From NCBI GenBank assembly GCA_028283765.1, contig JAPWJY010000002.1:62001-126000 (forward strand): DNA of 64,000 nucleotides, read 5' to 3'. The notes beneath the pieces are model-generated. The model saw only the letters and a program-made list of their open reading frames with translations, ran no database searches and was not told the origin of the DNA. This document shows positions 783 through 15,352 of this stretch, piece by piece (the first letter of the stretch is position 1; every line of letters begins with the position of its first letter). The position numbers were made by a program, and so were the translations under genes. Source of the DNA: Parvibaculaceae bacterium (GTDB lineage Bacteria > Pseudomonadota > Alphaproteobacteria > Parvibaculales > Parvibaculaceae).

Positions 783-1697
783 ATGGATTATTTTCTACAG
801 CAACTGATCAACGGCGCGACGCTCGGGGCCATCTACGGGCTCATCGCGCTGGGCTACACGATGGTTTACGGCATCATCGGCATGATCAATTTCGCTCATG
901 GCGACATCTACATGGTCGGCGCCTTCATCTCGCTGATCGGGCTGATGGTGATGGGGGCGCTGGGATTGACCTTCATCCCGCTCGCCCTCTTCCTGGTGGT
1001 ACTGCTCGCCATGATCTTCACCGCGCTCTATGGCTGGACCGTCGAGCGCATCGCCTACCGCCCGCTGCGCGGCTCGTCGAGACTGGCCCCGCTGATTTCC
1101 GCCATTGGCACCTCGATCTTCCTGCAAAACTATGTGCAGATCGCCCAGGGCGCGCGCGCCAAGCCCTTGCCGCCGATGGTTCGCGGATCGGTGGACCTCA
1201 TCCACACCGGCAATTTTCAGGTTACGATCAGCTATCTGCAAATCATGATCATCGCCCTGACCGTGGTGCTGATGGCGGGCTTCACCTTTATGATCCGCAA
1301 GACCTCGCTTGGCCGCGCCCAGCGCGCCACCGAGCAGGACATGACCATGGCCTCGCTGCTCGGCATAAATGTCGACCGGACCATCTCGATCACCTTCATC
1401 ATCGGCGCATCGCTTGCCGCCGTCGCCGGGCTGATGGTGACGCTCTATTATGGCGTGATCGATTTCTACATCGGCTTCATCGCGGGGATAAAGGCTTTCA
1501 CCGCCGCCGTTCTGGGCGGCATCGGCTCGCTGCCGGGCGCGATGCTGGGCGGTTTCCTCATCGGTCTCATCGAGGCTTTCTGGTCCGGCTATTTCAGCGT
1601 CGCCTACAAGGACGTCGGCGTCTTCGCCATTCTCGTGCTGGTGCTGATTTTCCGCCCCACGGGCTTGCTCGGCAAACCCGAGATCGAGAAGGTCTGA
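783..1697 (+). CDS. livH: Branched-chain amino acid ABC transporter permease LivH
   Basis: Inner-membrane permease of a HAAT-type ABC importer for branched-chain or related amino acids. The 304-residue protein opens with a motif close to the family norm (FLQQLINGATLGAIYGLIAL) and carries the GMINFAHGDIYMVGAF segment shared by LivH proteins. It has about eight hydrophobic helices and ends with the GRPTGLLG-like tail (here FRPTGLLGKPE). ATG 783 is preceded by AGGGGGC. It is the first gene of a tight cassette: livM follows after 3 bases, then livG, livF and a small membrane protein overlap one another. Its partner is LivM. The substrate cannot be read from sequence. Confidence 0.95.
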   Translation: MDYFLQQLINGATLGAIYGLIALGYTMVYGIIGMINFAHGDIYMVGAFISLIGLMVMGALGLTFIPLALFLVVLLAMIFTALYGWTVERIAYRPLRGSSRLAPLISAIGTSIFLQNYVQIAQGARAKPLPPMVRGSVDLIHTGNFQVTISYLQIMIIALTVVLMAGFTFMIRKTSLGRAQRATEQDMTMASLLGINVDRTISITFIIGASLAAVAGLMVTLYYGVIDFYIGFIAGIKAFTAAVLGGIGSLPGAMLGGFLIGLIEAFWSGYFSVAYKDVGVFAILVLVLIFRPTGLLGKPEIEKV

Positions 1698-1700
1698 GCC

Positions 1701-2978
1701 ATGACCGCCCTGCGCCTCAGAACCGAACTCGTGGATGCGCTGATCGCGGCCTTTGTCGCGGCGCTTCTCGCCCTGCCTCTCCTCGGCTTCAAGCTGACCG
1801 ATTCGGCCACGGGACTTTCCCTCGATTACCGCTGGCCCCTCGTCGGCTATGCCGCCGGTGCCGTCTTTACCGGGCGGCTCGCCATCGGCCAGCTTCGCCA
1901 TTTCTTCGGCGCCCGCTTCGACAGGACGCGCGGTCAGAGCGACATCTACAGCGCCGACCCCGGGCGGGCGCGGATCATGTTCGGCTGGGCGCTCATCGCC
2001 ATCGCGCTGGTCCTGCCGTGGCTGCCCTTCGCCGACAAGGGGCTGGTGGACAAGGCGACGCTCGTTCTCATCTATGTGATGCTCGGCTGGGGACTCAACA
2101 TCGTGGTGGGGCTCGCGGGCCTGCTCGACCTCGGTTATGTCGCGTTTTACGCCATCGGGGCCTATGCCTATGCCCTGCTGGCCAAGACCTTCGGCATTTC
2201 CTTCTGGCTCTGTCTGCCGCTCGCGGGCCTGCTCGCCGCGAGCTTCGGCATATTGCTCGGATTTCCGGTACTGCGCTTGCGCGGCGATTATCTCGCCATC
2301 GTCACGCTCGGCTTCGGCGAGATCATCCGGGTCATCCTGCAAAACTGGGGCGAGGTCACCGGGGGCCCCAACGGCATCAACAGCGTGCCGCGCCCGACCT
2401 TCTTCGGCCTGCCGTTTTCAGCGATTTCGCCAACCGGCCCGACTTTCCACGAATTTTTCGGCCTGCCCTTCTCGCCTGTCCACCGGATCTATTTTCTCTA
2501 TTACCTCATTCTGGCGCTCGCCCTCTTCACCAATATCTTCATCATCCGCATCCGCCGCCTGCCGGCCGGACGGGCGTGGGAAGCCTTGCGCGAGGATGAA
2601 ACTGCCTGCAAGAGCCTCGGCATCAACCCGACCCTGACCAAGCTTGCCGCTTTCGCCACCGGGGCCTGTTTCGCGGGCTTTGCGGGCAGCTTCTTCGCCA
2701 CCCGGCAAGGCTTCATCAGTCCCGAGAGTTTCAGCTTCATCGAGTCCGCCATCATTCTCGCCGTTGTCGTGCTGGGCGGCATGGGCAGCCAGATCGGCAT
2801 CGTCTTCGCCGCCCTGCTGCTGGTCGGCCTGCCGGAATGGTTCCGGGAGCTTGAGCAATACCGGATGCTCGCCTTCGGCGCGGCGATGGTGCTGATCATG
2901 CTCTGGCGGCCGCGCGGCCTGCTCGCGAGCCGCAGTCCGACCGTGCGCCTCGGCAAACTCGCGGAGGCCGCTTCATGA
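1701..2978 (+). CDS. livM: Branched-chain amino acid ABC transporter permease LivM
   Basis: Second inner-membrane permease of the Liv importer, 425 residues. This is the long form: the first ~110 residues are an extra N-terminal region with two hydrophobic helices, as in LivM proteins carrying a DUF3382-type extension. The core LivM module follows, with [23 protein letters not shown] around residues 133-155 and the conserved [18 protein letters not shown]. The EAA-like loop reads [20 protein letters not shown], the coupling helix that meets the ATPases. The 3' end overlaps the livG start by 4 bases (ATGA), which implies translational coupling. Confidence 0.95.
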
Positions 2979-3838
2979 ACAAGGACACGCTCCCGCAACG
3001 CATTCTGGAAGTCGAGCGCCTGTCCATCCGCTTTGGCGGCCTGCTGGCGGTCAACGATCTTTCCTTTGCAGCCCATGACCGGGAAATCACCGCGATCATC
3101 GGCCCGAACGGGGCCGGCAAAACCACCGTGTTCAATTGCCTTACGGGCTTTTACAAGCCCGGCGTCGGGCGCATTCGCCTCACCCATGCCGATGGCCGCG
3201 ATTATCTGCTGGAGCGGATGGACGATTTCCGGATCGCGCGTGAGGCGCGTGTGGTCCGCACCTTCCAGAATATCCGCCTGTTCGCGGGCATGAGCGTGCT
3301 GGAAAACCTGCTGGTCGCGCAACATGCCGCGCTGATGCGCGCCTCGCTCTTTTCGGTCGCGGGTATGCTCGGCCTGCCGTCCTATCGCAAGGCAGAGAAA
3401 ATCGCCATCGAGCGGGCGCGCCACTGGCTGGAGAAAACGGAGCTGATCGCCGCCGCCGATGAAGCCGCGGGCAGCCTGCCCTATGGCGCGCAGCGCCGGC
3501 TGGAAATTGCGCGCGCCATGTGCGCGGAACCGGTGCTTCTCTGCCTCGATGAACCGGCGGCAGGGCTCAATCCTCATGAGTCCCTTGAACTCAATGAACT
3601 GCTGCTGGCCATCCGCGCGGAAACCGGCACGGCGATCCTGCTGATCGAGCATGACATGAGCGTGGTGATGCAGATTTCCGATCATGTGATCGTGCTGGAC
3701 CATGGCGCGAAGATCGCCGACGGCAGCCCGCAGGCGGTCCGGGCGGACGAAGCGGTGATCCACGCCTATCTCGGCACGCCTGATTCGGAAGACCTGCCCC
3801 CCGACCTTGCCATCGGCATCGCGAAGGCAGGCCGGTGA
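2975..3838 (+). CDS. livG: Branched-chain amino acid ABC transporter ATPase LivG
   Basis: Cytoplasmic ATPase subunit of the Liv importer, 287 residues. Walker [10 protein letters not shown] is at residues 43-51. The signature helix is the LivG-type [15 protein letters not shown] rather than LSGGQ, and Walker B with its glutamate is [13 protein letters not shown]. The segment [27 protein letters not shown] is the usual LivG Q-loop. It overlaps livM by 4 bases and livF by 4, so all subunits should be made stoichiometrically from one transcript. Confidence 0.95.
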
Positions 3839-4584
3839 TGCTGAACGTCCGCAACCTTCGTTCCGGCTATGGCCATGTCAACGTGCTCAAGGGCATCGAC
3901 CTTGAGGTCAATCAGGGCGAAATCGTTTCCCTGATCGGTTCTAACGGCGCAGGCAAGACCACCCTGCTGATGACATTGTGCGGCAAGCCCCGCGCTCAGT
4001 CCGGCGCCATCCTTTTCGACGGCACCGATATCACCGGCATGCCGACCCATGAAATCATCCGGCTGGGCCTTGCCCATGCCCCGGAAGGACGGCACATCTT
4101 CCCCCGCATGAGCGTGATGGAAAATCTGCAGATGGGTGCCTTTGGCCGCCCACTGGCCGAGTTCCGGCAATCGCTCGACCGTGTGCTCACTCTCTTTCCC
4201 CGGCTGCAGGAAAGATTGAACCAGCGCGGCGGCACGCTCTCGGGCGGAGAACAGCAGATGCTGGCCATCGGCAGGGCGCTCATGGCCTCCCCGAAACTGC
4301 TGCTGCTCGACGAGCCCTCACTCGGTCTCGCCCCCCTCATCGTGAAACAATTGTTCGGCATCATCGCCAGCATCGCGCGGGATGAGAAGATCACCATTCT
4401 GCTGGTCGAACAGAACGCCTTTCAGGCGCTGAAACTCGCGGACCGGGCGCACATCATGGTGAACGGTGAGATCGCCATGTCGGGCCGGGGCGCCGATCTG
4501 CTGCATGATCCCAAGGTGCGCAATGCCTATCTGGAAGGGGGCCGGCTCCCCGCCACAGCCGTGGAGGCCGGGATCCATGACTGA
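3835..4584 (+). CDS. livF: Branched-chain amino acid ABC transporter ATPase LivF
   Basis: Second ATPase of the Liv importer, 248-249 residues. Walker A GSNGAGKTT lies near residues 35-43, the signature is LSGGEQQMLAIGRAL, and Walker B is LLLLDEPSLGLAP. The motif APEGRHIFPRMSVMENL is diagnostic for LivF. The start is either GTG 3835 or the adjacent in-frame ATG 3838; the livG stop TGA lies across them, so either implies coupled translation. It overlaps the next small gene by 8 bases. Confidence 0.95.
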   Translation: MMLNVRNLRSGYGHVNVLKGIDLEVNQGEIVSLIGSNGAGKTTLLMTLCGKPRAQSGAILFDGTDITGMPTHEIIRLGLAHAPEGRHIFPRMSVMENLQMGAFGRPLAEFRQSLDRVLTLFPRLQERLNQRGGTLSGGEQQMLAIGRALMASPKLLLLDEPSLGLAPLIVKQLFGIIASIARDEKITILLVEQNAFQALKLADRAHIMVNGEIAMSGRGADLLHDPKVRNAYLEGGRLPATAVEAGIHD

Positions 4585-4939
4585 TTCCATCCTCGGCACC
4601 AGCCTGCCGGTGTTCATCGCCATCACCCTCATCTTCATGGGCGGCTGCGCGCTGATGACGGGCCGGGCGACGGCCCGGAACTGGCGGCCTCTCTGGCACC
4701 TGCTGCCCTATGCCCTGCTGCTGGGCGCGGGCGACCGCTTCATCATCTATGCTCTCTTCGGGGGCGAACTCACCCTGGTGAGCGGCTATCTGATCGATAC
4801 AGCCCTGCTTTTCATCATTGCCCTTGCCGCCTACCGCCTGACGCTGGCCCGCCAGATGGTCCGCCAGTATCCGTGGCTCCATGCCCCCAAAGGGCTTTGG
4901 AGCTGGCAGGAAAGGACGGAGGCCAAAGACGGCAACTGA
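4577..4939 (+). CDS. Small membrane protein of the Liv operon (DUF6867-like)
   Basis: 120-residue membrane protein, starting at ATG 4577 inside the last codons of livF. Three hydrophobic stretches are visible: an N-terminal helix (LPVFIAITLIFMGGCALM), a middle one (LWHLLPYALLLGAG) and one near residues 72-90 (YLIDTALLFIIALAAY). The C-terminus is charged and ends in a tryptophan-containing tail (APKGLWSW). A small protein of this kind follows livF in many alphaproteobacterial Liv operons, and I believe the Pfam name is DUF6867. It has no assigned function; a role in assembly or regulation of the permease is inference from position only. Confidence 0.75.
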   Translation: MTDSILGTSLPVFIAITLIFMGGCALMTGRATARNWRPLWHLLPYALLLGAGDRFIIYALFGGELTLVSGYLIDTALLFIIALAAYRLTLARQMVRQYPWLHAPKGLWSWQERTEAKDGN

Positions 4940-5037
4940 GGATTGCAGCGGTCCGGTTACGGAGTAGACTTCCAGTTCCGGCAGCATCCATCCGTGCCAT
5001 GCGCATATCGGCCTTGGCCTCATTCGGGGGACTTTCT

Positions 5038-6144
5038 ATGAATCGCTTCAGATTACTCATGCTCGGCGCGGCCACTTCGCTGATACTGGCGGCGACCGCC
5101 GCCCGGGCGGACATTGTTGTCGGCGTGGCTGGCCCGCTCACGGGCAGCGAGGCCGTCTTCGGGGAGCAATTCAGCCACGGCGCCAGCAAGGCCGTCGACG
5201 ACATCAACAAGAAGGGCGGCCTGCTCGGCCAGAAGCTCGTGCTCAAATCCGGCGATGACGCCTGCGATCCCAAGCAGGCCGTGAGCGTAGCCAACGACAT
5301 GGCGAGCGCGGGCGCCGCGGTCGTGATCGGGCATTTCTGCTCGGGCTCGTCCATCCCCGCCTCCGACGTCTATGCGGAATCGAACATCATCCAGATCTCG
5401 CCCGGCTCGACCAACCCGGATTTCACCGAGCGCGGCCTGCCCAACGTGTTCCGCGTGTGCGGGCGCGACGACGCTCAGGGCCCGATCGCGGCGGAATATG
5501 TCCAGTCGCATTTCAAGGGCAAGACCATCGCCATCGTGCAGGACAAATCCACCTACGGTCAGGGCCTCGCCGACCAGTTCAAGGCCAAACTGAATGCACT
5601 GGGTACCAAGGAAGTGCTCTATGATTCGATCACGGCGGGCGACAAGGATTTCAGCCCCCTCGTCTCCAAGCTGAAACAGGCCAATGTCGATGTGCTCTAT
5701 TTCGGCGGCTACAAGACCGAAGCAGGGCTGATCACGCGCCAGCTTCGCGAACAAGGCCTGAAGACCATCCTCGTCAGCGGCGATGCGCTCGTGACGGACG
5801 AATATTGGGCGATCACGGGAGATGCGGGCCAGGGAACGCTGATGACCTTCGGTCCGGACCCGCGGCTCAACCCGGTGAACAAGACGCTCGTCGAGGAATT
5901 CCGCGCCGACAAATATGAGCCGGAAGCCTATACGCTCTACACCTATGCCGCCCTTCAGGCCTGGGCCGACGCCGTGACCAAGGCGGGGACAACCGATGCC
6001 ACCAAGGTGGCAGCCGAGTTGAAGAAGGACAAATTCTCCACGGCGCTCGGGGAAATCCAGTTCGATGCCAAGGGCGACAACAAGGCACCGGGCTACGTCG
6101 TCTATGAATGGAACAACGGCAAATATGCCTATGTGAAAAACTAG
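5038..6144 (+). CDS. Branched-chain amino acid ABC transporter substrate-binding protein (LivK/LivJ type)
   Basis: Periplasmic binding protein of the Liv importer, 368 residues, with a signal peptide of about 23 residues ending ATAARA-D. The mature protein opens IVVGVAGPLTGSEAVFGEQF, the standard peripla_BP_6 start. It keeps the disulfide pair typical of LivK/LivJ (DDACDPKQAV and GHFCSGSSIPAS). I chose ATG 5038 because it begins exactly at the signal peptide and has GGGGG 8 bases upstream; an upstream in-frame extension lacks signal character. It lies 98 bases after the small membrane protein, so it may also have its own promoter. A strong hairpin follows the stop. Confidence 0.94.
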   Translation: MNRFRLLMLGAATSLILAATAARADIVVGVAGPLTGSEAVFGEQFSHGASKAVDDINKKGGLLGQKLVLKSGDDACDPKQAVSVANDMASAGAAVVIGHFCSGSSIPASDVYAESNIIQISPGSTNPDFTERGLPNVFRVCGRDDAQGPIAAEYVQSHFKGKTIAIVQDKSTYGQGLADQFKAKLNALGTKEVLYDSITAGDKDFSPLVSKLKQANVDVLYFGGYKTEAGLITRQLREQGLKTILVSGDALVTDEYWAITGDAGQGTLMTFGPDPRLNPVNKTLVEEFRADKYEPEAYTLYTYAALQAWADAVTKAGTTDATKVAAELKKDKFSTALGEIQFDAKGDNKAPGYVVYEWNNGKYAYVKN

Positions 6145-6155
6145 GCGCAGTGCAA

Positions 6156-6182
6156 GGCCCGGAACATTTCATGTTCCGGGCC
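6156..6182. terminator. Bidirectional hairpin between the Liv binding protein and the Gre-type gene
   Basis: A perfect 12-bp stem, 6156-6167 against 6171-6182, with a 3-base loop. It sits just after the binding-protein stop and contains the stop codon of the converging Gre-type gene (6169-6171). It has no long T-run, so it is better seen as a shared transcript-end hairpin than as a canonical intrinsic terminator. Confidence 0.65.
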
Positions 6183-6681
6183 CAGGCCAGTCCGCATTCA
6201 GTTCCGCATCCACGCCGTTGTCGATCTCGATGATTTCCGCTTCGCCGCCCGGCACCGGCCGGATATCCCCGGTTTTAGCCCCGATCAAAGCCCGCGCGAT
6301 GGGCGCGACATAGGACACATATCCGGCTTTGGGGTCCGCTTCATCCTCACCCACGATGCGAAACGACATCCCCTTGCCGTCGTCGCGCTCGATAACCACC
6401 TTCGAGCCGAAACCGACAACCGATCCGGCATCGGGCTCCAACTCCACCAGCACGACCGTGGAGCGGCGCTGCGCCCAGTAGCGCAGATCGCGCGACAGTC
6501 TGGCGATCTCAGCCCGGTCCGCATTCTTGTGAGCCACGCCCAACGCCTTGCGCAGGGATTCGATCTCCCGGTCCATCAAGGCGAGGCCCCGCTTCGTCAC
6601 GAAATTCGGATGCGGGCTTACCGGCCGTTCCGGCATTTCGGTATCCTCGCCCTCACCTTCTTTGACAAATGCACGGCTCAT
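6169..6681 (-). CDS. GreA/GreB-family transcription elongation factor-like protein
   Basis: 170-residue protein with the two-domain layout of the GreA/GreB family. There is a charged N-terminal helical region (TKRGLALMDREIESLRKAL ... ADRAEIARLSRDLRYWAQRR) and a C-terminal FKBP-like domain (VGFGSKVVIERDDGKGMSFRIVGEDEADPKAGYVSYVAPIARALIGAKTGD). The start MSRAFVKE is the common opening of alphaproteobacterial GreA-domain proteins, so I place it at 6681; a longer upstream reading into the guanidine leader has no protein-like character. The coiled-coil is shorter than in GreA, so it may be a Gre-factor homologue with a different role (for example Rnk- or Gfh-like). Confidence 0.82.
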   Translation of the reverse strand: MSRAFVKEGEGEDTEMPERPVSPHPNFVTKRGLALMDREIESLRKALGVAHKNADRAEIARLSRDLRYWAQRRSTVVLVELEPDAGSVVGFGSKVVIERDDGKGMSFRIVGEDEADPKAGYVSYVAPIARALIGAKTGDIRPVPGGEAEIIEIDNGVDAELNADWPGPGT

Positions 6682-6821
6682 TGGCTTATCGATGCTTTCC
6701 AGGGCAGCAGCCTCTCCGCCCCATGCCTGTTTCCGGGCAGAAAGATGCGAAGTTGCCGACAATATGGGCAGCCCTCCTGCCGGACCGCCCTCATTCCATC
6801 CTACTCTCCTTCCTTCTTGCA

Positions 6822-6836
6822 TGGCACATAGTTTGC
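6822..6836 (+). promoter_or_regulatory. Sigma-54 (RpoN) -24/-12 promoter of the guanidine operon
   Basis: TGGCAC at 6822-6827 and TTGC at 6833-6836 match the sigma-54 consensus TGGCAC-N5-TTGC, with exactly 10 bases between the invariant GG (6823-6824) and GC (6835-6836). A start point about 12 bases after the GC falls near 6847-6849, exactly where the riboswitch begins. That coincidence strengthens the call. Sigma-54 control would tie the operon to nitrogen limitation through an NtrC-type activator. I did not find a convincing activator site upstream. Confidence 0.75.
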
Positions 6837-6849
6837 GTAATACATGTTG

Positions 6850-6956
6850 GCAGCGGCTAGGGTTCCGGCCTTCCCATCGGGAGGGTGCTGGTCCGAGAGC
6901 CGCAACCCCCTCGGTGAACAGCGGCGGGGTACACGGCGGGACAAAAGCCCGGGAGG
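6850..6956 (+). ncRNA. Guanidine-I riboswitch (ykkC class)
   Basis: The three most conserved blocks of the ykkC/guanidine-I aptamer occur in order with natural spacing: CTAGGGTTCCG at 6857-6867, GGTCCGAGAG at 6890-6899, and ACACGGCGGGACAAAAGCCC at 6931-6950, followed by GGGAG. Between the first two blocks is a hairpin (CTTCCC...GGGAGG). The aptamer senses free guanidinium and turns expression on. Downstream, 6969-6978 pairs with 7001-7010 as a 10-bp hairpin with one G-U. The CCTCC it contains could otherwise pair with the GGAGG ribosome site before ATG 7061, which suggests translational control (inference). Confidence 0.95.
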
Positions 6957-7060
6957 TTGTTGTGATGCGAGGATTGGCATTCACATGACCGCCATGTCAC
7001 GCCGATCCTCCAACGTGAAACATCCGGAATCTGATGATCCGGTAAGCTGGAGGGTAATAG

Positions 7061-8134
7061 ATGAAGGTGTTTTTCCGCAAAATCCTGACTGCCGTGGCAC
7101 TGGCTGTCCTTGTCGCGGGCGCCAGCGTGCACAGCGCCGAGGCAGCTCCCAAAAAGGAATTCAAGTTCGCCTGGTCGATCTATGTCGGCTGGATGCCCTG
7201 GGGCTGGGCCGCCGATCATGGCATCATCAAGAAATGGGCCGACAAATACGGCATCAAGATCGATGTCGTGCAGTTCAATGATTACGTCGAGTCGATCAAT
7301 CAATATACCGCCGGCGGCTTTGACGGCGTGACGGTCACCAACATGGACGCCCTGTCCATCCCCGCCGTAGGCGGCGTCGACACCAGCGCCATCATCGTCG
7401 GCGACTATTCCAACGGCAATGACGCGATCATCCTGAAGGACAAGAAGGACCTTGCGGATATCAAGGGCCAGAAGGTCAATCTGGTCCAGTATTCCGTTTC
7501 CCACTATCTGCTCGCCCGCGCCCTCCAGTCCAAGGGCATGACCGAGCCGGACGTCAATGTGGTCAATACATCGGACGCCGACATGATCAGCGCCTGGAAG
7601 ACGCCGGATGTAACCGCGGTGGTGACCTGGAACCCGATGGTCGCCGACATATTGACGGGCAAGGAAGCCCATGACGTCTTCGACTCCAGCAAAATTCCCG
7701 GCGAAATCATGGATATTGCCGTGGTCAACACCGATGTGCTGAAGGACAATCCCGACTTCGCCAAGGCCCTGACCGGCGCGTGGTATGAAACGCTCGGCAT
7801 CATGGAAAGCAAGACCGCGGAAGGCAAAGAGGCGCGCGAAGCCATGGCCAAGGCCTCCGGCACCGATCTCGCCGGATTTGAAGGCCAGTTGAAGACCACC
7901 AAGCTCTTCACCACGCCGAAAGAGGGCGTGACTTTCACCCAGGGCGACCTTGCCACCATCATGAACAGGGTCCGTGACTTCCTGTTTGCCCACAGCCTGC
8001 TCGGCAATGGCGCAGCCTCCGCCGATGTGGTTGGCATCGAATTCGCCAACGGCAAGATCCTTGGCGACAAGGGCAACGTGAAGTTCCGCTTCACCGACAA
8101 ATACATGAAGCTTGCCGAACAGGGCAAACTTTAG
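7061..8134 (+). CDS. Periplasmic ABC substrate-binding protein of the guanidine/urea-carboxylase cluster
   Basis: 357-residue NitT/TauT-type binding protein with a signal peptide of about 28 residues (ending HSAEAA). It matches the family found beside 'urea carboxylase' genes (TIGR03427 type). Recognisable parts are FKFAWSIYVGWMPWGWAADHGIIKKWADKYGIKIDVV near the N-terminus and SDADMISAWKTPDVTAVVTWNPMV in the middle. A GGAGGG ribosome site precedes ATG 7061. It is the first gene after the guanidine-I riboswitch, so the likely ligand is guanidine or a guanidino compound (inference). The permease and ATPase genes that normally follow are absent; the next gene is an enzyme subunit. It must use a transporter core encoded elsewhere, or act as a sensor or scavenger. 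Confidence 0.88.
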   Translation: MKVFFRKILTAVALAVLVAGASVHSAEAAPKKEFKFAWSIYVGWMPWGWAADHGIIKKWADKYGIKIDVVQFNDYVESINQYTAGGFDGVTVTNMDALSIPAVGGVDTSAIIVGDYSNGNDAIILKDKKDLADIKGQKVNLVQYSVSHYLLARALQSKGMTEPDVNVVNTSDADMISAWKTPDVTAVVTWNPMVADILTGKEAHDVFDSSKIPGEIMDIAVVNTDVLKDNPDFAKALTGAWYETLGIMESKTAEGKEAREAMAKASGTDLAGFEGQLKTTKLFTTPKEGVTFTQGDLATIMNRVRDFLFAHSLLGNGAASADVVGIEFANGKILGDKGNVKFRFTDKYMKLAEQGKL

Positions 8135-8143
8135 GATCTATGG

Positions 8144-8168
8144 ACGGAAGGGGCGCCGCCCCTTCCGT
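8144..8168 (+). terminator. GC-rich hairpin just after the binding-protein gene
   Basis: An 11-bp perfect stem, 8144-8154 against 8158-8168, loop GCC, begins 10 bases after the stop of the binding-protein gene. There is no T-run. It more likely stabilises the upstream mRNA segment or partly attenuates transcription than ends it, since no promoter is evident before the following enzyme genes. Confidence 0.5.
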
Positions 8169-8182
8169 ATGCTCTCAACGAC

Positions 8183-8292
8183 AGGCCGGGACGACCCGGC
8201 GGAGGACCTCCCTCCCGCATAAGTCTGGACGGCCAGACGCAATCCGGTTGCGACCGGGGCGAAGGCAGAGGCTTTCGCAAGATGCGAAGGAA
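8183..8292 (+). ncRNA. Guanidine-II riboswitch (mini-ykkC) with ribosome-site switch
   Basis: Two hairpins carry the class-defining ACGR tetraloops. The first has stem 8185-8190/8195-8200 with loop ACGA (8191-8194). The second has stem 8223-8228/8233-8238 with loop ACGG (8229-8232). They are 22 bases apart, in the range of natural mini-ykkC linkers. Downstream, 8272-8278 (CTTTCGC) can pair with 8284-8290 (GCGAAGG, which contains the ribosome site of ATG 8298) or with an equivalent GCGAAGG at 8259-8265. These two structures exclude each other and look like the expression platform: guanidine binding would decide whether the ribosome site is free. The aptamer is seen directly; the switching model is inference. 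Confidence 0.9.
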
Positions 8293-8297
8293 CGATC

Positions 8298-9101
8298 ATG
8301 AACGACCAGACCGCCACTGAAAAAGCACTCGCGGAAAAGGAGCTTTACGACACGCTCCACAAGCAGGGCCGAAGCCGCCGTCCGGCAGACCTGCCCGGCA
8401 ATCCCGCCACGCTTCCAGCCGGCCTCATCGTCAAGACGGAAACCATTCCCGGCGGATGGGGCAGCTCGTTCATCGTACCGCGCGGACAGACGGTGCGGAT
8501 CTCGAACCCCGGGGCCACCCCCGGCGTCAGCATCCTGCTCTACAACGCGAAAGACCCCACAGAACGCTTCAATGCCGGCGATACGGTGAAGGTGCAGTGG
8601 AGCGCCCGTCTCGGCAAGGGCATGGTGCTGTTCTCCGACATGGGGCGTGTGCTGGCCTCGATCACCGACGACAGTTTCGGTTTCAACGATGCGCTGACCG
8701 GCGGCTCCAGCCCGTTGACCAATGCCGAGAAATATGGTGACGCCACCTTGCGCAATACGCGCGAGAATTTCGTGCTGCTCGCGGCCAAACACGGGCTTGG
8801 CCGCGCCGACGTCCCTCCTTGCCTGACCTTGTTCGCGCCCGTCGTGGTGGACGAGGCGGGAAAATTCTTCTGGTCGGAAAAGTCCCCCGCTTCAGACGCC
8901 TATGTCGATCTGAGAGCGGAGATGGATCTGCTGATTTTCGTCTCCAACTGCCCGCATCCGCTTTCGCCCGGCGATTACGCGCCAAAGCCGGTCGATGTGC
9001 TGCTGTGGCAATCGCCTGCACCTGCTGAAGATGATCCGTGCCGCACGCTGACCGAGGAAGCGCGCCGCGGCTTTGACAATACAGACGCATTGTTCGCGTA
9101 A
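8298..9101 (+). CDS. Carboxyguanidine deiminase subunit (urea carboxylase-associated protein, DUF1989; larger subunit)
   Basis: 267-residue DUF1989 protein, one of the two paralogous 'urea amidolyase-associated' proteins (UAAP1/UAAP2) now known to form the heteromeric carboxyguanidine deiminase CgdAB, which turns carboxyguanidine into allophanate and ammonia. Family marks are the GQTVRISNPGATPGVSILLYNAKDP segment, TRENFVLLAAKHGLG and the late cysteine motif NCPHPLSPGDYAPKP. It has an N-terminal extension of ~45 residues that the next gene product lacks. The ribosome site GAAGGA is inside the guanidine-II expression platform. I cannot decide from sequence which subunit letter (A or B) applies. 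Confidence 0.88.
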   Translation: MNDQTATEKALAEKELYDTLHKQGRSRRPADLPGNPATLPAGLIVKTETIPGGWGSSFIVPRGQTVRISNPGATPGVSILLYNAKDPTERFNAGDTVKVQWSARLGKGMVLFSDMGRVLASITDDSFGFNDALTGGSSPLTNAEKYGDATLRNTRENFVLLAAKHGLGRADVPPCLTLFAPVVVDEAGKFFWSEKSPASDAYVDLRAEMDLLIFVSNCPHPLSPGDYAPKPVDVLLWQSPAPAEDDPCRTLTEEARRGFDNTDALFA

Positions 9102-9117
9102 GCAGGGAACCAGCATC

Positions 9118-9750
9118 ATGACCACCACGAGCACACTTGATCCCCAGGACGCGATCTATGACTTCACCGTGCCCTCGCGCCGCCCATGGTCGCGCGTGCT
9201 GCGCAAGGGGCAGATTCTGCGCATCGTCGACCTGGAAGGGCAGCAGGCTGTCGATACACTGTTCTACAACGCCCATGACAAGCAGGAGCGCTACAGCGCG
9301 CAGGATACGATCCGCGCCCAGGGGTCGGCCTATATCTCGACCGGCACGAAACTGCTCTCGAGCGAAGGCAATCTTATGGCGACTGTGATCGCCGATACCG
9401 CCGGCTTCCACGACACCTCGGCGGGCGCATGCAGCGCCGAGAGCAACACCGTGCGCTTCGGCCACGACAAGAAATTCATGCATAGCTGCCGCGATAATTT
9501 CGTGCTTGAGCTTGCCCGCCACGGCATGACCAAGCGCGACCTTGTCAGCAACATCAATTTCTTCATGAACGTGCCGGTGGAGCCCGACGGAGCGCTGGCC
9601 ATCGTCGACGGCGTCTCGAAGCCCGGCGACTATGTCGAACTACGCGCCGAGATGGATATTCTCTGCGTCATTTCTAACTGCCCCCAGATCAACAATCCCT
9701 GCAACGGCTTCAACCCGACGCCGATCCGCACGCTGATCTGGAGCCAGTGA
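9118..9750 (+). CDS. Carboxyguanidine deiminase subunit (urea carboxylase-associated protein, DUF1989; smaller subunit)
   Basis: 210-residue DUF1989 paralogue of the preceding gene. The shared fold shows in KGQILRIVDLEGQQAVDTLFYNAHD, SCRDNFVLELARHGMTKRDLVSNINFFMNV and the cysteine motif SNCPQINNPCNGFNPTPI, which has an extra cysteine compared with its partner. ATG 9118 is chosen because it starts the conserved part and has CAGGGAA upstream; a longer upstream reading overlaps the previous gene. It follows its partner after 16 bases and precedes the carboxylase by 1 base. That order fits a heteromeric CgdAB enzyme feeding allophanate to AtzF. Confidence 0.88.
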   Translation: MTTTSTLDPQDAIYDFTVPSRRPWSRVLRKGQILRIVDLEGQQAVDTLFYNAHDKQERYSAQDTIRAQGSAYISTGTKLLSSEGNLMATVIADTAGFHDTSAGACSAESNTVRFGHDKKFMHSCRDNFVLELARHGMTKRDLVSNINFFMNVPVEPDGALAIVDGVSKPGDYVELRAEMDILCVISNCPQINNPCNGFNPTPIRTLIWSQ

Positions 9751-9751
9751 C

Positions 9752-12700
9752 ATGAGTTTGTTCGATTGTGTTCTCGTCGCCAATCGCGGCGAGATCGCCT
9801 GTCGCGTCATCCGCACCCTGCAGAAGATGGGCATCCGCGCGGTCGCCATCTATTCCGATGCGGACCGCTTCGCGCCGCATGTGCTGATGGCCGATGAGGC
9901 CATACGCGTCGGCCCTGAAGCGGCGGCGTTGAGCTATCTCAACGTCGAGGCCATCCTCGATGCGGTGAAGCAGACCGGCGCGCAGGCCGTCCATCCCGGC
10001 TATGGCTTCCTGAGCGAGAACCCCGGCTTTGCCGAGGCCCTGACAGAGATGGGCGTCGCCTTCATAGGCCCCTCACCCGCCCACATGCGCGCCTTCGCCC
10101 TGAAGCACACGGCCCGCGATCTGGCGGAAAAATCCGGCGTGCCGCTGCTGCCGGGCTCACCGCTGGTCGCGGACCTTGAGATGGCGCTGGCCGAAGCCGA
10201 ACGCGTCGGCTACCCCGTCATGCTGAAAAGCACAGCGGGCGGCGGCGGCATCGGCCTCCAGCTTTGCCGGACGCGCGAGGAACTCCCGGCCCTCTTCGAC
10301 ACGGTGCGACGCCTCAGCCTTGCGAACTTCAAGGACGCGGGCCTCTTCATCGAAAAATTCGTGGGCGAAGCGCGCCATGTCGAGGTGCAGATTTTCGGTG
10401 ATGGCAAGGGCGGCGTGATCGCCCTTGGCGAACGCGATTGTTCCGCGCAGCGCCGCAACCAGAAAGTGATCGAGGAAACCCCCGCGCCCAACGTGCCGGA
10501 GGCCACGCGGCGCGCCATGCATGAGGCGGCGGTGAAGCTCGCCCGGACCGTTTCCTACGCGTCGGCGGGCACGGTCGAATTCATCTATGACGCGGATCAT
10601 GACGAGTTCTATTTTCTCGAAGTGAACACCCGCCTTCAGGTCGAGCATCCGGTCACCGAAATGGTGACGGGTCTCGATCTGGTCGAAATGATGGTGCTGC
10701 AGGCCGCAGGCATGCTGCCCCCACTTGAAAGCTTCGCCCGCGTGCCTCAGGGCCATGCCATCGAGGTGCGTCTTTATGCCGAGGATCCGGGCAAGAACTT
10801 CCAGCCCTCCTCCGGCACGCTGACGCAGGTGAGCTTTCCCGACACGATCCGGGTCGATCACTGGATTGCGCGCGGCACCGACGTCTCACCCTTCTATGAT
10901 CCGATGCTGGCCAAGATCATCGTTCATGGCCGCGACCGGGCGGAGGCGTGCGCGAAGCTCACCGCCGCGCTGGAAGAAAGCGCCGTCTACGGCATCGAAA
11001 CCAATCTCGATTATCTGCGCACCCTGTCCCGTTCCCCGCAGTTCCATGATGGGCTGATGCGGACGAAAACGCTGGGTGAGATCGCCTATGCGCCCGCCAG
11101 CGTGGACGTGCTTTCCCCCGGCGCTCAATCCAGCATTCAGGATTATCCCGGCCGCACCGGCTACTGGAACATTGGCGTGCCGCCTTCCGGCCCGATGGAT
11201 TCGCTCTCGTTCCGGCTTGCCAACCGCATCGTCGGCAATGCGCCCGGAACGCCCGCGCTTGAGTGCACGCTGATGGGGCCGGCATTGCGCTTCAACTGCG
11301 ACGCTGTGATCGCGCTCTGCGGCGCGTCCATGTCCGCGACTCTCGACGGCGCGCCGGTCTCCGGCTGGGAAGCCTTGCCCGTCAAGGCGGGGCAGACGCT
11401 GGCGCTTGGCACCATCACGGGGGCAGGCCAGCGCGCCTATCTGGCCGTTCGCCATGGCTTCGACGTGCCGCGCTTCCTTGGCAGCGGCTCCACCTTCGAT
11501 CTCGGCAAGTTCGGCGGCCACGCCACCGGCACGCTGAAAAGCGGCGATGTGCTGCGCCTGCGCCGTGAGGGTGCCGTAAGCGAAGCTCTTGCCGGTGCCC
11601 TGCCCGTCAAGGACCGCCCGTCTCTGACCCATGAATGGGAAATCGCGACGCTTTACGGCCCCCATGGCGCGCCGGATTTCTTCACCGGTGAAGACATTGA
11701 TACGCTTTTCAGCGCCAGCTATGAGGTGCATTACAATTCGGCGCGCACCGGCGTGCGCCTGATCGGCCCGAAGCCGAAATGGACGCGCAGCGACGGCGGC
11801 GAGGCGGGGCTCCACCCCTCCAATATCCACGACAACGCCTATGCCGTCGGTACCATCGACTTCACCGGCGACATGCCGATCATTCTGGGCCCCGATGGCC
11901 CGAGTCTTGGTGGCTTTGTCTGCCCGGGCACGATCGCAAGGGCGGAGTTGTGGAAATCAGGCCAGTTGAAGCCCGGCGACAAGGTGCGCTTCATCCGTAT
12001 CGATGAAGCCGAAGCCGAGCGTGCGCGCCATGAGGAAGAAGCGTGGGTCAGGGACCTCGCCCGTCCAGCGCGCCGGCCTTCCGTTTCCATGCAAACGGAA
12101 CCCGCCGTCATTACTCGCCTCGAAGCGGGTCCGTTGCCGGTCACCTACCGGCGCGCGGGCGATGATTATCTGTTGGTCGAATATGGACCGCTGGTGCTCG
12201 ACTTCGCGCTTCGATTCCGCGCGCACGCCCTGATGACGGCCGTTGCCGCAAAGGGGCTTCATGGCCTGATCGAGATGACGCCGGGCATCCGCTCACTGCA
12301 GTTTCACGTCGAGCCCGACGTTCTGCCACTGGGCAGGCTCGTCTCCCTGTTGCAGGAAATCGAGACGGAGCTTCCCCCCATAGAAGAGATGGTTGTCCCC
12401 AGCCGCATTGTGCATCTGCCGCTCTCATGGGATGACGATCAGGCACGCGAGGCCGTGCTCAAATATCAGACGCTGGTGCGTCCCGATGCGCCCTGGTGCC
12501 CGTCCAACATCGAGTTCATCCGGCGCATCAATGGCCTCGATTCGATCGAGAACGTGAAGCAGATCCTGTTCGAGGCCGACTATATGGTGCTGGGCCTCGG
12601 CGACGTCTATCTCGGCGCGCCGGTGGCGACGCCTCTCGATCCGCGTCATCGTCTGGTCACCACAAAATACAATCCAGCCCGCACCTGGACGCCCGAAAAC

Positions 12701-13363
12701 GCCGTCGGCATCGGCGGCGCCTATATGTGCGTTTACGGCATGGAGGGTCCCGGCGGCTATCAGCTCGTCGGCCGGACCGTGCAGATGTGGAATAGCTGGC
12801 ACCAGACGGCAAGCTTCGGTGAGGGCAAGCCATGGCTGCTGCGCTTCTTCGACCGCATCCGCTTTTTCCCGGTCGGCGCGGAAGAATTGCTCGATCTGCG
12901 CGCCCGCTTCCCGCATGGGGAATATGACGTGAAGATCGAGGAGGGCGAATTCCGCCTGAAGGATTATTTCGACTTCCTGTCGCAGAACGACTCTGAAATA
13001 GAGAGTTTCAGGACATCGCAGCGGGCCGCCTTTCAGGCCGAACGCCAGCGCTGGGAGGAACAGGGCCTGATGATGCTGGCGGACGAACCCGCCGCGCCGC
13101 CACGAACTGAAGCCATCGAAATGCCCGACGGCGGTCAGCTCGTGGAAGCGACAGTGCCCGGCAATGTATGGTCCGTGCGCGTTTCACCCGGCGACGAGGT
13201 GAAGGCGGGTGAGCCGCTGGTGGTGCTTGAATCAATGAAGATGGAAATCGAGATGAAAGCACCGGTTGCAGGGCGCATCCATGAAGTGCATTGCGAAATG
13301 GGCCGCATGGTCCGCGCCGGTGAGCCGCTGGTCACGCTCGTTCCCCTGGAGATAACGCAATGA
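9752..13363 (+). CDS. Biotin-dependent guanidine/urea-type carboxylase
   Basis: 1203-residue single-chain carboxylase. Residues ~1-447 are the biotin carboxylase domain (ANRGEIACRVIRTL, ATP-grasp loop GGGGIGLQL, ERDCSAQRRNQKVIEE). Residues ~455-770 are a KipI/KipA-like (AHS2/AHS1) module starting SPGAQSSIQDYPGRTGYWNIGVP. The rest of the carboxyltransferase follows, with GIGGAYMCVYGMEGPGGYQLVGRT. The C-terminal biotinyl domain carries VLESMKMEIEM, biotin lysine K1163. This architecture is usually labelled urea carboxylase. With two guanidine aptamers and both CgdAB genes adjacent, guanidine is the more likely substrate, giving carboxyguanidine. I could not verify the published Asp/Asn specificity residue by eye. 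Its stop overlaps atzF by 4 bases. Confidence 0.93.
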   Translation: MSLFDCVLVANRGEIACRVIRTLQKMGIRAVAIYSDADRFAPHVLMADEAIRVGPEAAALSYLNVEAILDAVKQTGAQAVHPGYGFLSENPGFAEALTEMGVAFIGPSPAHMRAFALKHTARDLAEKSGVPLLPGSPLVADLEMALAEAERVGYPVMLKSTAGGGGIGLQLCRTREELPALFDTVRRLSLANFKDAGLFIEKFVGEARHVEVQIFGDGKGGVIALGERDCSAQRRNQKVIEETPAPNVPEATRRAMHEAAVKLARTVSYASAGTVEFIYDADHDEFYFLEVNTRLQVEHPVTEMVTGLDLVEMMVLQAAGMLPPLESFARVPQGHAIEVRLYAEDPGKNFQPSSGTLTQVSFPDTIRVDHWIARGTDVSPFYDPMLAKIIVHGRDRAEACAKLTAALEESAVYGIETNLDYLRTLSRSPQFHDGLMRTKTLGEIAYAPASVDVLSPGAQSSIQDYPGRTGYWNIGVPPSGPMDSLSFRLANRIVGNAPGTPALECTLMGPALRFNCDAVIALCGASMSATLDGAPVSGWEALPVKAGQTLALGTITGAGQRAYLAVRHGFDVPRFLGSGSTFDLGKFGGHATGTLKSGDVLRLRREGAVSEALAGALPVKDRPSLTHEWEIATLYGPHGAPDFFTGEDIDTLFSASYEVHYNSARTGVRLIGPKPKWTRSDGGEAGLHPSNIHDNAYAVGTIDFTGDMPIILGPDGPSLGGFVCPGTIARAELWKSGQLKPGDKVRFIRIDEAEAERARHEEEAWVRDLARPARRPSVSMQTEPAVITRLEAGPLPVTYRRAGDDYLLVEYGPLVLDFALRFRAHALMTAVAAKGLHGLIEMTPGIRSLQFHVEPDVLPLGRLVSLLQEIETELPPIEEMVVPSRIVHLPLSWDDDQAREAVLKYQTLVRPDAPWCPSNIEFIRRINGLDSIENVKQILFEADYMVLGLGDVYLGAPVATPLDPRHRLVTTKYNPARTWTPENAVGIGGAYMCVYGMEGPGGYQLVGRTVQMWNSWHQTASFGEGKPWLLRFFDRIRFFPVGAEELLDLRARFPHGEYDVKIEEGEFRLKDYFDFLSQNDSEIESFRTSQRAAFQAERQRWEEQGLMMLADEPAAPPRTEAIEMPDGGQLVEATVPGNVWSVRVSPGDEVKAGEPLVVLESMKMEIEMKAPVAGRIHEVHCEMGRMVRAGEPLVTLVPLEITQ

Positions 13364-15123
13364 CGACGACATCCCTCGCCCTCCCCGAACTGCGGACCCG
13401 CTATGCCGAAGGCATCTCCGTCGAACAGGTGATGACCGGCCTGCTGGCGCGGATCGATGCCTATGAGGATGGCGCCGTCTGGATCGCCCGCGTCTCGCCT
13501 GAAAAACTTCTGGAACGGGCCCGCGCGCTCGATACCCTGCCGCATGTCGAGAAAGTGAAGCTGGCGCTTTTCGGCGTGCCTTTCGCGGTGAAGGACAATA
13601 TCGATGTGGCGGGCCTGCCGACAACGGCCGCCTGCCCCGCGTTCGCCTACAGGCCGGAGCGTTCCGCCACCGTGATCGAGCGGTTGGAGGCGGCGGGCGC
13701 CATCGTCCTTGGAAAGACGAATCTCGACCAGTTCGCCACCGGCCTCAATGGCACACGTTCGCCCCATGGCGCGCCGCGTTCGGTTTTCAACAAGGACTAT
13801 ATATCGGGCGGCTCAAGCTCCGGTTCCTCCGTGGCTGTCGCCGCAGGGCTTGCGAGCTTTTCACTCGGCACGGACACAGCCGGGTCTGGCCGGGTGCCTG
13901 CCGCATTCAACAATATTGTCGGACTGAAGCCGACCAGAGGACTTCTCTCGACGCGCGGCGTCGTGCCTGCCTGCCGCTCGCTCGATTGCGTTTCCGTGTT
14001 TGCCCTTACTGTCGATGATGCCCTGTCGGTGACCAGCGTCGCGGCGGGATTCGATGCGGAAGACCCGTTTTCGCGCGCGGCAATCGCCCGGCCAGATACG
14101 CCAAATCGCCGCATCGCCATGCCGCCCGCAGCGCATATAAATGACAATTGCGATCCGGAAACGGCACGGCTGTTCTTTTCCTCGGTTGATCTGCTCGGGC
14201 AGCTTGGCTTCGAGATGAGCGAAATCGATTATGCCCCCTTCGCGGAAACGGCAGCGCTGCTTTATGAAGGTCCGTGGGTCGCGGAGCGCACCGCGGCTGT
14301 CGGCGGCTTTGTGGAAGCTCATCCGGACGCGATAAATCCCGTCGTGCGGACCATCGTTGAAGGCGGCAAGGGACGCAGCGCGGCCGAAGGCTTTGAGGCA
14401 AGCTACCGGCTGGCGGCCCTGCATCGCCAGGCCCACGCCCTTCTGGACGGCTTCGATGCGATGCTGGTGCCGACGGCACCCGCCATCTTCACCGTGGCGC
14501 AGATGGAAGCCGACCCCATCGCGCTCAACAGCCGCCTCGGCCTCTATACGAATTTCATGAACCTGCTCGATCTTTCGGGCATCGCCATCCCGGCAGGCTT
14601 TGGTGCCGACGGCCTGCCCGTCGGTATCACCCTCGCTGGCCAGGCTTTCGATGAGGAAAAGCTCGGCGATATCGCCCGGCTGTTCGCCGCCGCCCTGTCG
14701 ATTGAACCCGGCGGACCTCTTGCACAAAAGGAAGAGTGTCTGGAGATCGTCGCGGTCGGAGCCCACATGTCCGGCCTGCCGCTCAACAGGGAACTGACAG
14801 CGCGCGGCGCAACGCTGGTCGAGGCAGGCAAGACCGCCCCCCACTACCGGCTTTACGCACTCCCCGGCGGCCCACCCGCCCGGCCCGGCCTTTTGCGCCA
14901 TGCCGATGGCGTCGCCATCGCCATCGAGGTCTGGTCCATGCCCTTGCGCCATTTCGGCAGCTTCATGGCGGGCATTCCAGCGCCCTTGTGCATCGGCACC
15001 GTGGAACTTGCCAGTGGACGCAAGGTCAAGGGGTTCCTGTGCGAGCCCTATGGCCTTGAAGGGGCGACCGACGTCAGCGGCTTCGGCGGCTGGCGCAATT
15101 ATCTTGCCAGCAAGGGCAACTGA
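13360..15123 (+). CDS. atzF: Allophanate hydrolase AtzF
   Basis: 587-residue cytoplasmic enzyme that hydrolyses allophanate to ammonia and CO2, the last step of the guanidine/urea carboxylation route. The amidase-signature domain (residues ~1-440) shows the Ser-cisSer-Lys triad: K78 in FAVKDNIDVAG, S151 in the GGSSSGSS loop and S175 in GTDTAGSGR. The C-terminal ~130 residues (from about VGAHMSGLPLN, with YRLYALPGGPPARPGLLR) are the extra domain characteristic of AtzF, which separates it from plain amidases. The start overlaps the carboxylase stop (ATGA), so the two are translationally coupled. Confidence 0.94.
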   Translation: MTTTSLALPELRTRYAEGISVEQVMTGLLARIDAYEDGAVWIARVSPEKLLERARALDTLPHVEKVKLALFGVPFAVKDNIDVAGLPTTAACPAFAYRPERSATVIERLEAAGAIVLGKTNLDQFATGLNGTRSPHGAPRSVFNKDYISGGSSSGSSVAVAAGLASFSLGTDTAGSGRVPAAFNNIVGLKPTRGLLSTRGVVPACRSLDCVSVFALTVDDALSVTSVAAGFDAEDPFSRAAIARPDTPNRRIAMPPAAHINDNCDPETARLFFSSVDLLGQLGFEMSEIDYAPFAETAALLYEGPWVAERTAAVGGFVEAHPDAINPVVRTIVEGGKGRSAAEGFEASYRLAALHRQAHALLDGFDAMLVPTAPAIFTVAQMEADPIALNSRLGLYTNFMNLLDLSGIAIPAGFGADGLPVGITLAGQAFDEEKLGDIARLFAAALSIEPGGPLAQKEECLEIVAVGAHMSGLPLNRELTARGATLVEAGKTAPHYRLYALPGGPPARPGLLRHADGVAIAIEVWSMPLRHFGSFMAGIPAPLCIGTVELASGRKVKGFLCEPYGLEGATDVSGFGGWRNYLASKGN

Positions 15124-15273: not shown

Positions 15274-15334
15274 CCGGAGATTGCCGCAGGCGCGATAATC
15301 TCCGGGGCTGGCGCACCGGCACAGGCCGGTGCGC
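15274..15334 (+). promoter_or_regulatory. Two consecutive perfect hairpins in the leader of the Orn/Lys/Arg decarboxylase
   Basis: Hairpin 1: nine-base stem 15274-15282/15297-15305 with a 14-base loop. Hairpin 2: ten-base stem 15311-15320/15325-15334 with loop ACAG. The second ends 5 bases before the AGGGGAGA ribosome site (15340-15347). Neither has a T-run. They could end the atzF transcript or form a leader switch. The loops are not ACGR, so this is not a guanidine-II aptamer, and I do not recognise guanidine-III either. Confidence 0.5.
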
Positions 15335-15352
15335 GCTCTAGGGGAGATCGCA

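Follow-up and report, generated by a model that had tools for sequence, protein, structure and literature searches.

The window, by which we mean the whole 64,000-nucleotide stretch of Parvibaculaceae DNA analyzed here, carries a cgd/gca gene cluster on its forward strand, together with two riboswitch aptamers and several candidate regulatory structures:

6846-6957, forward strand: guanidine-I riboswitch aptamer (RF00442), from a covariance-model match
6969-7011, forward strand: hairpin 3' of guanidine-I, with arms GAGGAUUGGC (6969-6978) and GCCGAUCCUC (7001-7010)
7061-8134, forward strand: ABC transporter substrate-binding protein (SBP) gene, uca-associated (TIGR03427, 533.9 bits, cut-off 333.9)
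8143-8168, forward strand: GC-rich perfect inverted repeat of 11 bp, ACGGAAGGGGC-GCC-GCCCCUUCCGU, from its fold; no U run
8185-8238, forward strand: guanidine-II (mini-ykkC) riboswitch aptamer, from RF01068, a genus-excluded model (R3), and covariation
8185-8200, forward strand: guanidine-II P1, GCCGGG-ACGA-CCCGGC, an ACGR hairpin
8223-8238, forward strand: guanidine-II P2, GUCUGG-ACGG-CCAGAC, an ACGR hairpin
8259-8291, forward strand: candidate guanidine-II expression platform, from folding energies
8298-9101, forward strand: cgdA, carboxyguanidine deiminase subunit (UAAP1, DUF1989; TIGR03425, 260.6 bits, cut-off 205.95)
9073-9750, forward strand: cgdB, carboxyguanidine deiminase subunit (UAAP2, DUF1989; TIGR03424, 344.5 bits, cut-off 284.7)
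9752-13363, forward strand: gca, guanidine/urea carboxylase of the urea-carboxylase type (TIGR02712, 1854.8 bits)
13360-15123, forward strand: atzF, allophanate hydrolase (TIGR02713, 766 bits, cut-off 511)

The SBP is probably a guanidine-binding protein, and the presence of cgdAB and the riboswitches suggests that the carboxylase acts on guanidine rather than urea. No mgdH/mgdL-type genes occur among the annotated operon genes. In most relatives, permease and ATPase genes lie between the SBP gene and guanidine-II, which is then ~2.8 kb from guanidine-I; the SBP gene of the window adjoins neither, and because the window genus lacks both there, its two aptamers are only 1.2 kb apart. A paralogous SBP-permease-ATPase set, whose genes are 43%, 58%, and 58% identical to those of locus L049, is located ~59 kb upstream on the same contig (G000:C6:8233-10816); the 9 kb read around these genes contain no guanidine-I core motif. 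This set may lend membrane parts to the operon SBP. Just upstream of the operon lies a Liv-type branched-chain amino acid ABC transporter cluster (783-6144), separated from it by a divergent GreA-like gene (~6169-6681, reverse strand). Immediately 3' of the allophanate hydrolase gene is an Orn/Lys/Arg decarboxylase gene (15329-17653), which is arginine-decarboxylase-like and scores below the family cut-off.

The identity of the leader element as guanidine-I is beyond doubt. RF00442 matched it at 82.2 bits (cut-off, 63) over model positions 1 to 107 of 107, with an E value of 4e-13 for all families against 64 kb. From this match, the RNA would be expected to bind guanidine. The hairpin that follows can hide an anti-Shine-Dalgarno (anti-SD) sequence, CCUCC (7007-7011), and is a candidate expression platform. 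Its pattern, GAGG(A/G)UUGGC..GCC(G/A)AUCCUC, is kept 3' of guanidine-I in the window genus and in the genus Parvibaculum, including the back-to-back loci described below; four genomes (G004, G010, G014, and G016) have a different hairpin there. Predicted folds of the leader with this hairpin and with the SD:anti-SD pairing are equal in energy (-92.4 kcal/mol). Among relatives, SD:anti-SD complementarity after guanidine-I was not above that of shuffled sequences, in a comparison in which the SD was mis-picked in the window and in L044. No U-run terminator follows guanidine-I on the forward strand; thus, intrinsic termination and control through translation or Rho are equally likely at this site.

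The second aptamer is less easily recognized by the Rfam model. RF01068 matched positions 8183-8237 of the forward strand at 29.1 bits, 3 bits under its curated cut-off of 32 bits, which is a curation threshold. The E value was 2.6e-4 for a 231-base stretch and 0.073 for the whole window against 4,227 families. The Rfam search, which the original prediction had named as its own check, therefore bore out guanidine-I and left guanidine-II just short of the cut-off, bordering on the outcome said to count against it. Genome-wide, this match was nonetheless the best to RF01068 (runner-up, 18.7 bits), and guanidine-II elements at the same place in close relatives scored 33 to 38 bits. The anatomy is that of the class: two ACGR loops, GG/CC closing pairs, and a linker of 22 nt. 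Only one pair of ACGR hairpins occurs per strand in the 64 kb, that of the forward strand being 8185-8238, and P2 ends 59 nt before the start codon of cgdA, a guanidine metabolism gene, near its ribosome-binding site. Sub-threshold matches to c-di-GMP-II and CC0196 in the window were treated as chance.

Because the Rfam gathering threshold misses this guanidine-II element, a family-specific covariance model was built, and to avoid circularity it was rebuilt without the window genus. The resulting model (R3; 21 loci, with the window and its sister genome left out) retrieved this guanidine-II element with 45.0 bits (E value, 3.3e-11), and its next match in the window scored 12 bits. We searched 37 Parvibaculaceae genomes and found guanidine-I in 24, one of them on a contig that ends too early for the cgdA leader to be read. 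A pair of ACGR hairpins stands immediately 5' of cgdA in 22/22 readable sister loci and in the window, so that guanidine-I is followed by guanidine-II in all 23. Across these sequences, the 12 base pairs of guanidine-II are standard in 269/269 cells (100%), five pairs have changed on both sides, and the ACGR loops and GG/CC closing pairs are invariant. The covariation score was 0.358, against 0.130 ± 0.015 for shuffled alignments and at most 0.085 for slid ones. In the sister genus, only the linker has changed. Thus, 8185-8238 is a genuine guanidine-II element, and it shows that true members of the class are missed at the Rfam cut-off; judging from its conserved parts, the RNA would bind guanidine through loop-loop kissing. 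Other Parvibaculaceae loci (L066 to L071) hold second, separate guanidine-II-like ACGR pairs with no cgd or operon genes nearby.

The covariance models and covariation uphold the central claim of the original prediction, namely, that two structurally unrelated guanidine riboswitch classes stand in series in one gene cluster. Gene annotation likewise agrees with the order and context it proposed (guanidine-I 5' of the binding-protein gene and guanidine-II 5' of the first enzyme gene), and its coordinates were correct to within a few bases of 6846-6957 and 8185-8238. The window thus combines a guanidine-I leader with an internal guanidine-II on the same strand of a guanidine carboxylase cluster.

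Between guanidine-II and cgdA, the sequence GCGAAGG occurs twice (8259-8265 and 8284-8290). CUUUCGC at 8272-8278 can form a hairpin with either copy: pairing with the first leaves the SD free, pairing with the second covers it, and the two hairpins are mutually exclusive. Forced folds of the leader came to -57.3 and -55.1 kcal/mol, only 2.2 kcal/mol apart. When these hairpins were sought in relatives, they were not kept beyond the genus, other sequences being present there; hence, a switchable SD hairpin as the guanidine-II platform is suggestive only. On the other side of the aptamer, between the SBP gene and cgdA, the inverted repeat at 8143-8168 is kept, with an altered loop, in the sister-genus locus L044. 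It lacks a U run and was not called as a terminator. It could protect the 3' end of the SBP mRNA or mark a processing site, and it could instead split two transcripts. A scan for a sigma-70-like promoter (6600-8320) or a forward-strand terminator-like site between the genes, itself a weak method, found none.

Very probably, the cluster is an operon for guanidine assimilation in which two guanidine ON switches, each independent of the other, act in succession, a design already published and met here in its alphaproteobacterial form. When guanidine is present, the guanidine-I leader would admit the transcript and allow expression of the binding protein. Guanidine-II, 1.2 kb downstream and immediately 5' of cgdA, would then gate translation of the catabolic genes: guanidinium would cause the two ACGR loops to kiss, freeing the cgdA ribosome-binding site. 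Such serial gates would be expected to repress tightly and, acting together, to make expression of the costly enzymes respond more steeply than that of the binding protein. Ligand binding by both RNAs, their placement on a single transcript, and the two expression platforms are the parts of this scheme that we infer. The mechanism as a whole is plausible and has in part been published for another species.

Three other readings bear on this scheme. That 8185-8238 is a decayed or nonfunctional guanidine-II relic would fit its RF01068 score below the cut-off, but this reading is scarcely credible given loops and closing pairs that are invariant in 23 loci, stems that covary while remaining fully paired, 45 bits from a model that excludes the genus, and a sister genus in which guanidine-II is retained with only its linker altered. 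More serious, if still improbable, is an arrangement in parallel rather than in series, in which guanidine-I controls an SBP mRNA ending at 8143-8168 and guanidine-II controls a second mRNA starting just upstream of that repeat. A strong inverted repeat does lie between the SBP gene and cgdA, the SBP stop and the cgdA start are 163 nt apart, and a 2025 review, which places genes "under the control of" one riboswitch or the other, does not demonstrate a single transcript (PMC12186494). Against this, the repeat has no U run, neither promoter nor terminator emerged from the scan, guanidine-II is retained in every sister operon that has the upstream genes, and the corresponding Vreelandella boliviensis operon has been handled as a single unit (PMC12508155). 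Both riboswitches are likely to be on a single mRNA.

The two RNAs might also be set to different ligands or thresholds, with guanidine-II responding, for example, to methylguanidine; we regard this as unlikely, though less so than the preceding readings. In V. boliviensis, guanidine-I binds guanidine only (KD, 44 µM), and guanidine-II binds both guanidine (93 µM) and methylguanidine (83 µM) (Sinn et al. 2025, Nat Commun, PMC12508155). The guanidine KDs of that pair differ only about twofold, which speaks against separate thresholds; specificity is the clearer difference there. The lack of an mgdH/mgdL-type gene among the annotated genes of the window operon also counts against this reading. 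Two serial guanidine switches remain the preferred reading.

The original prediction had further held that this serial design was undescribed. That claim is refuted by two publications (PMC12508155 and PMC12186494), and the design is also common. We scanned named genomes for CgdB and considered the best 80 of more than 550 candidate loci, a selection biased to near relatives. With the two models, 46/80 of these best loci, drawn from Alpha-, Beta-, and Gammaproteobacteria, were found to carry both aptamers on one strand, guanidine-I coming first and mostly lying ~2.8 kb from guanidine-II. Among the same best 80 of more than 550, guanidine-II is followed directly by cgdA in 45 loci, chiefly from Rhizobiales and other Alphaproteobacteria but also from Solimonas, and by gca in 9 (Thiobacillus, Gallionella, Sideroxydans, Plasticicumulans, Methylococcaceae, and others). 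Within this selection, guanidine-II thus precedes cgdA in most Alphaproteobacteria and gca in most Beta- and Gammaproteobacteria. In a class-wide sample, guanidine-I occurred in 24 of 337 genomes, at least 9 of which have guanidine-II 1 to 3 kb downstream, a count from which the fast filters used may have lost weak matches. Far from being a curiosity, serial guanidine control by two classes is accordingly what cgd/gca operons normally show in many Proteobacteria, with two standard places for the internal guanidine-II, 5' of cgdA or 5' of gca. These operons lend themselves well to the question of why evolution has kept a pair of unrelated sensors for the same ligand within a single operon. The window operon itself adds a good example to a known design rather than revealing a new one.

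A variant of this arrangement occurs in relatives of the Parvibaculum group. In the window, the SBP gene intervenes between the two riboswitches, whereas in three loci (L047 in genome G009, L055 in G020, and L060 in G027) guanidine-I is followed by guanidine-II in one cgdA 5' leader, with no gene between them and without the transporter genes that are usual there in relatives. These back-to-back leaders, identified by ACGR hairpins and a guanidine-I match, are as follows:

L047, 529-834: back-to-back guanidine-I and guanidine-II leader
L055, 530-832: back-to-back guanidine-I and guanidine-II leader
L060, ~5897-6200, reverse strand: back-to-back guanidine-I and guanidine-II leader

The guanidine-I elements score 80 to 85 bits, and the guanidine-I hairpin is kept in the gap of ~65 to 80 nt that separates the two aptamers. 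By the Rfam model, the guanidine-II elements are weak (22.1 bits in G009) or unlisted at an E value of 0.5, so that the call rests on their intact ACGR hairpins. The G009 leader differs in sequence from the G020/G027 pair, and two of the contigs are 584 and 354 kb long, which argues against an assembly error. A 2022 survey of tandem riboswitches reported that it found none of the guanidine classes in tandem (PMC9481103); part of the reason is probably that such sequences escape the Rfam model for guanidine-II. No back-to-back pair was found in our 337-genome class sample. On balance, we favor reading the three leaders as same-ligand, two-class tandem riboswitches that the survey did not find, which would make the variant modestly new. 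If so, they and the serial loci together would document, in nature, a passage from serial to true tandem control. The leaders also offer a compact construct for asking whether the two riboswitches form an AND gate at two levels of expression.

The closest published counterpart is that of V. boliviensis, where guanidine-I lies in the 5' untranslated region and guanidine-II lies between cgdB and gca; the operon is strongly induced, and both transcriptional and translational control have been proposed (PMC12508155). The window shares with it the guanidine-I leader, the guanidine-II within the operon, and genes for CgdAB, guanidine carboxylase, allophanate hydrolase, and a binding protein. The two differ in that guanidine-II precedes cgdA in the window, and the window operon has the binding protein alone where V. 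boliviensis has mgdH/mgdL and a full ABC transporter. Both V. boliviensis RNAs have been shown to bind guanidine. The same order of riboswitches is described for Raoultella, Klebsiella, and Erwinia (PMC12186494). As in the window, guanidine-I there stands before importer and deiminase genes and guanidine-II before later cluster genes, but these are the carboxylase and allophanate hydrolase genes rather than the deiminase gene. We found no published description of guanidine-II 5' of cgdA in a literature check that did not extend to the primary 2021 Raoultella/Klebsiella study (doi 10.1111/mmi.14702). Finally, the SAM-II/SAM-V bi-mechanism tandem, in which one riboswitch is proposed to act on transcription and the other on translation (reviewed in PMC9481103), resembles the window in that a single ligand is sensed by two riboswitches of different structure in series. 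Its members are OFF switches in one leader, whereas a gene separates the two riboswitches of the window, and the back-to-back leaders of L047, L055, and L060 are therefore closer to SAM-II/SAM-V than the window is.
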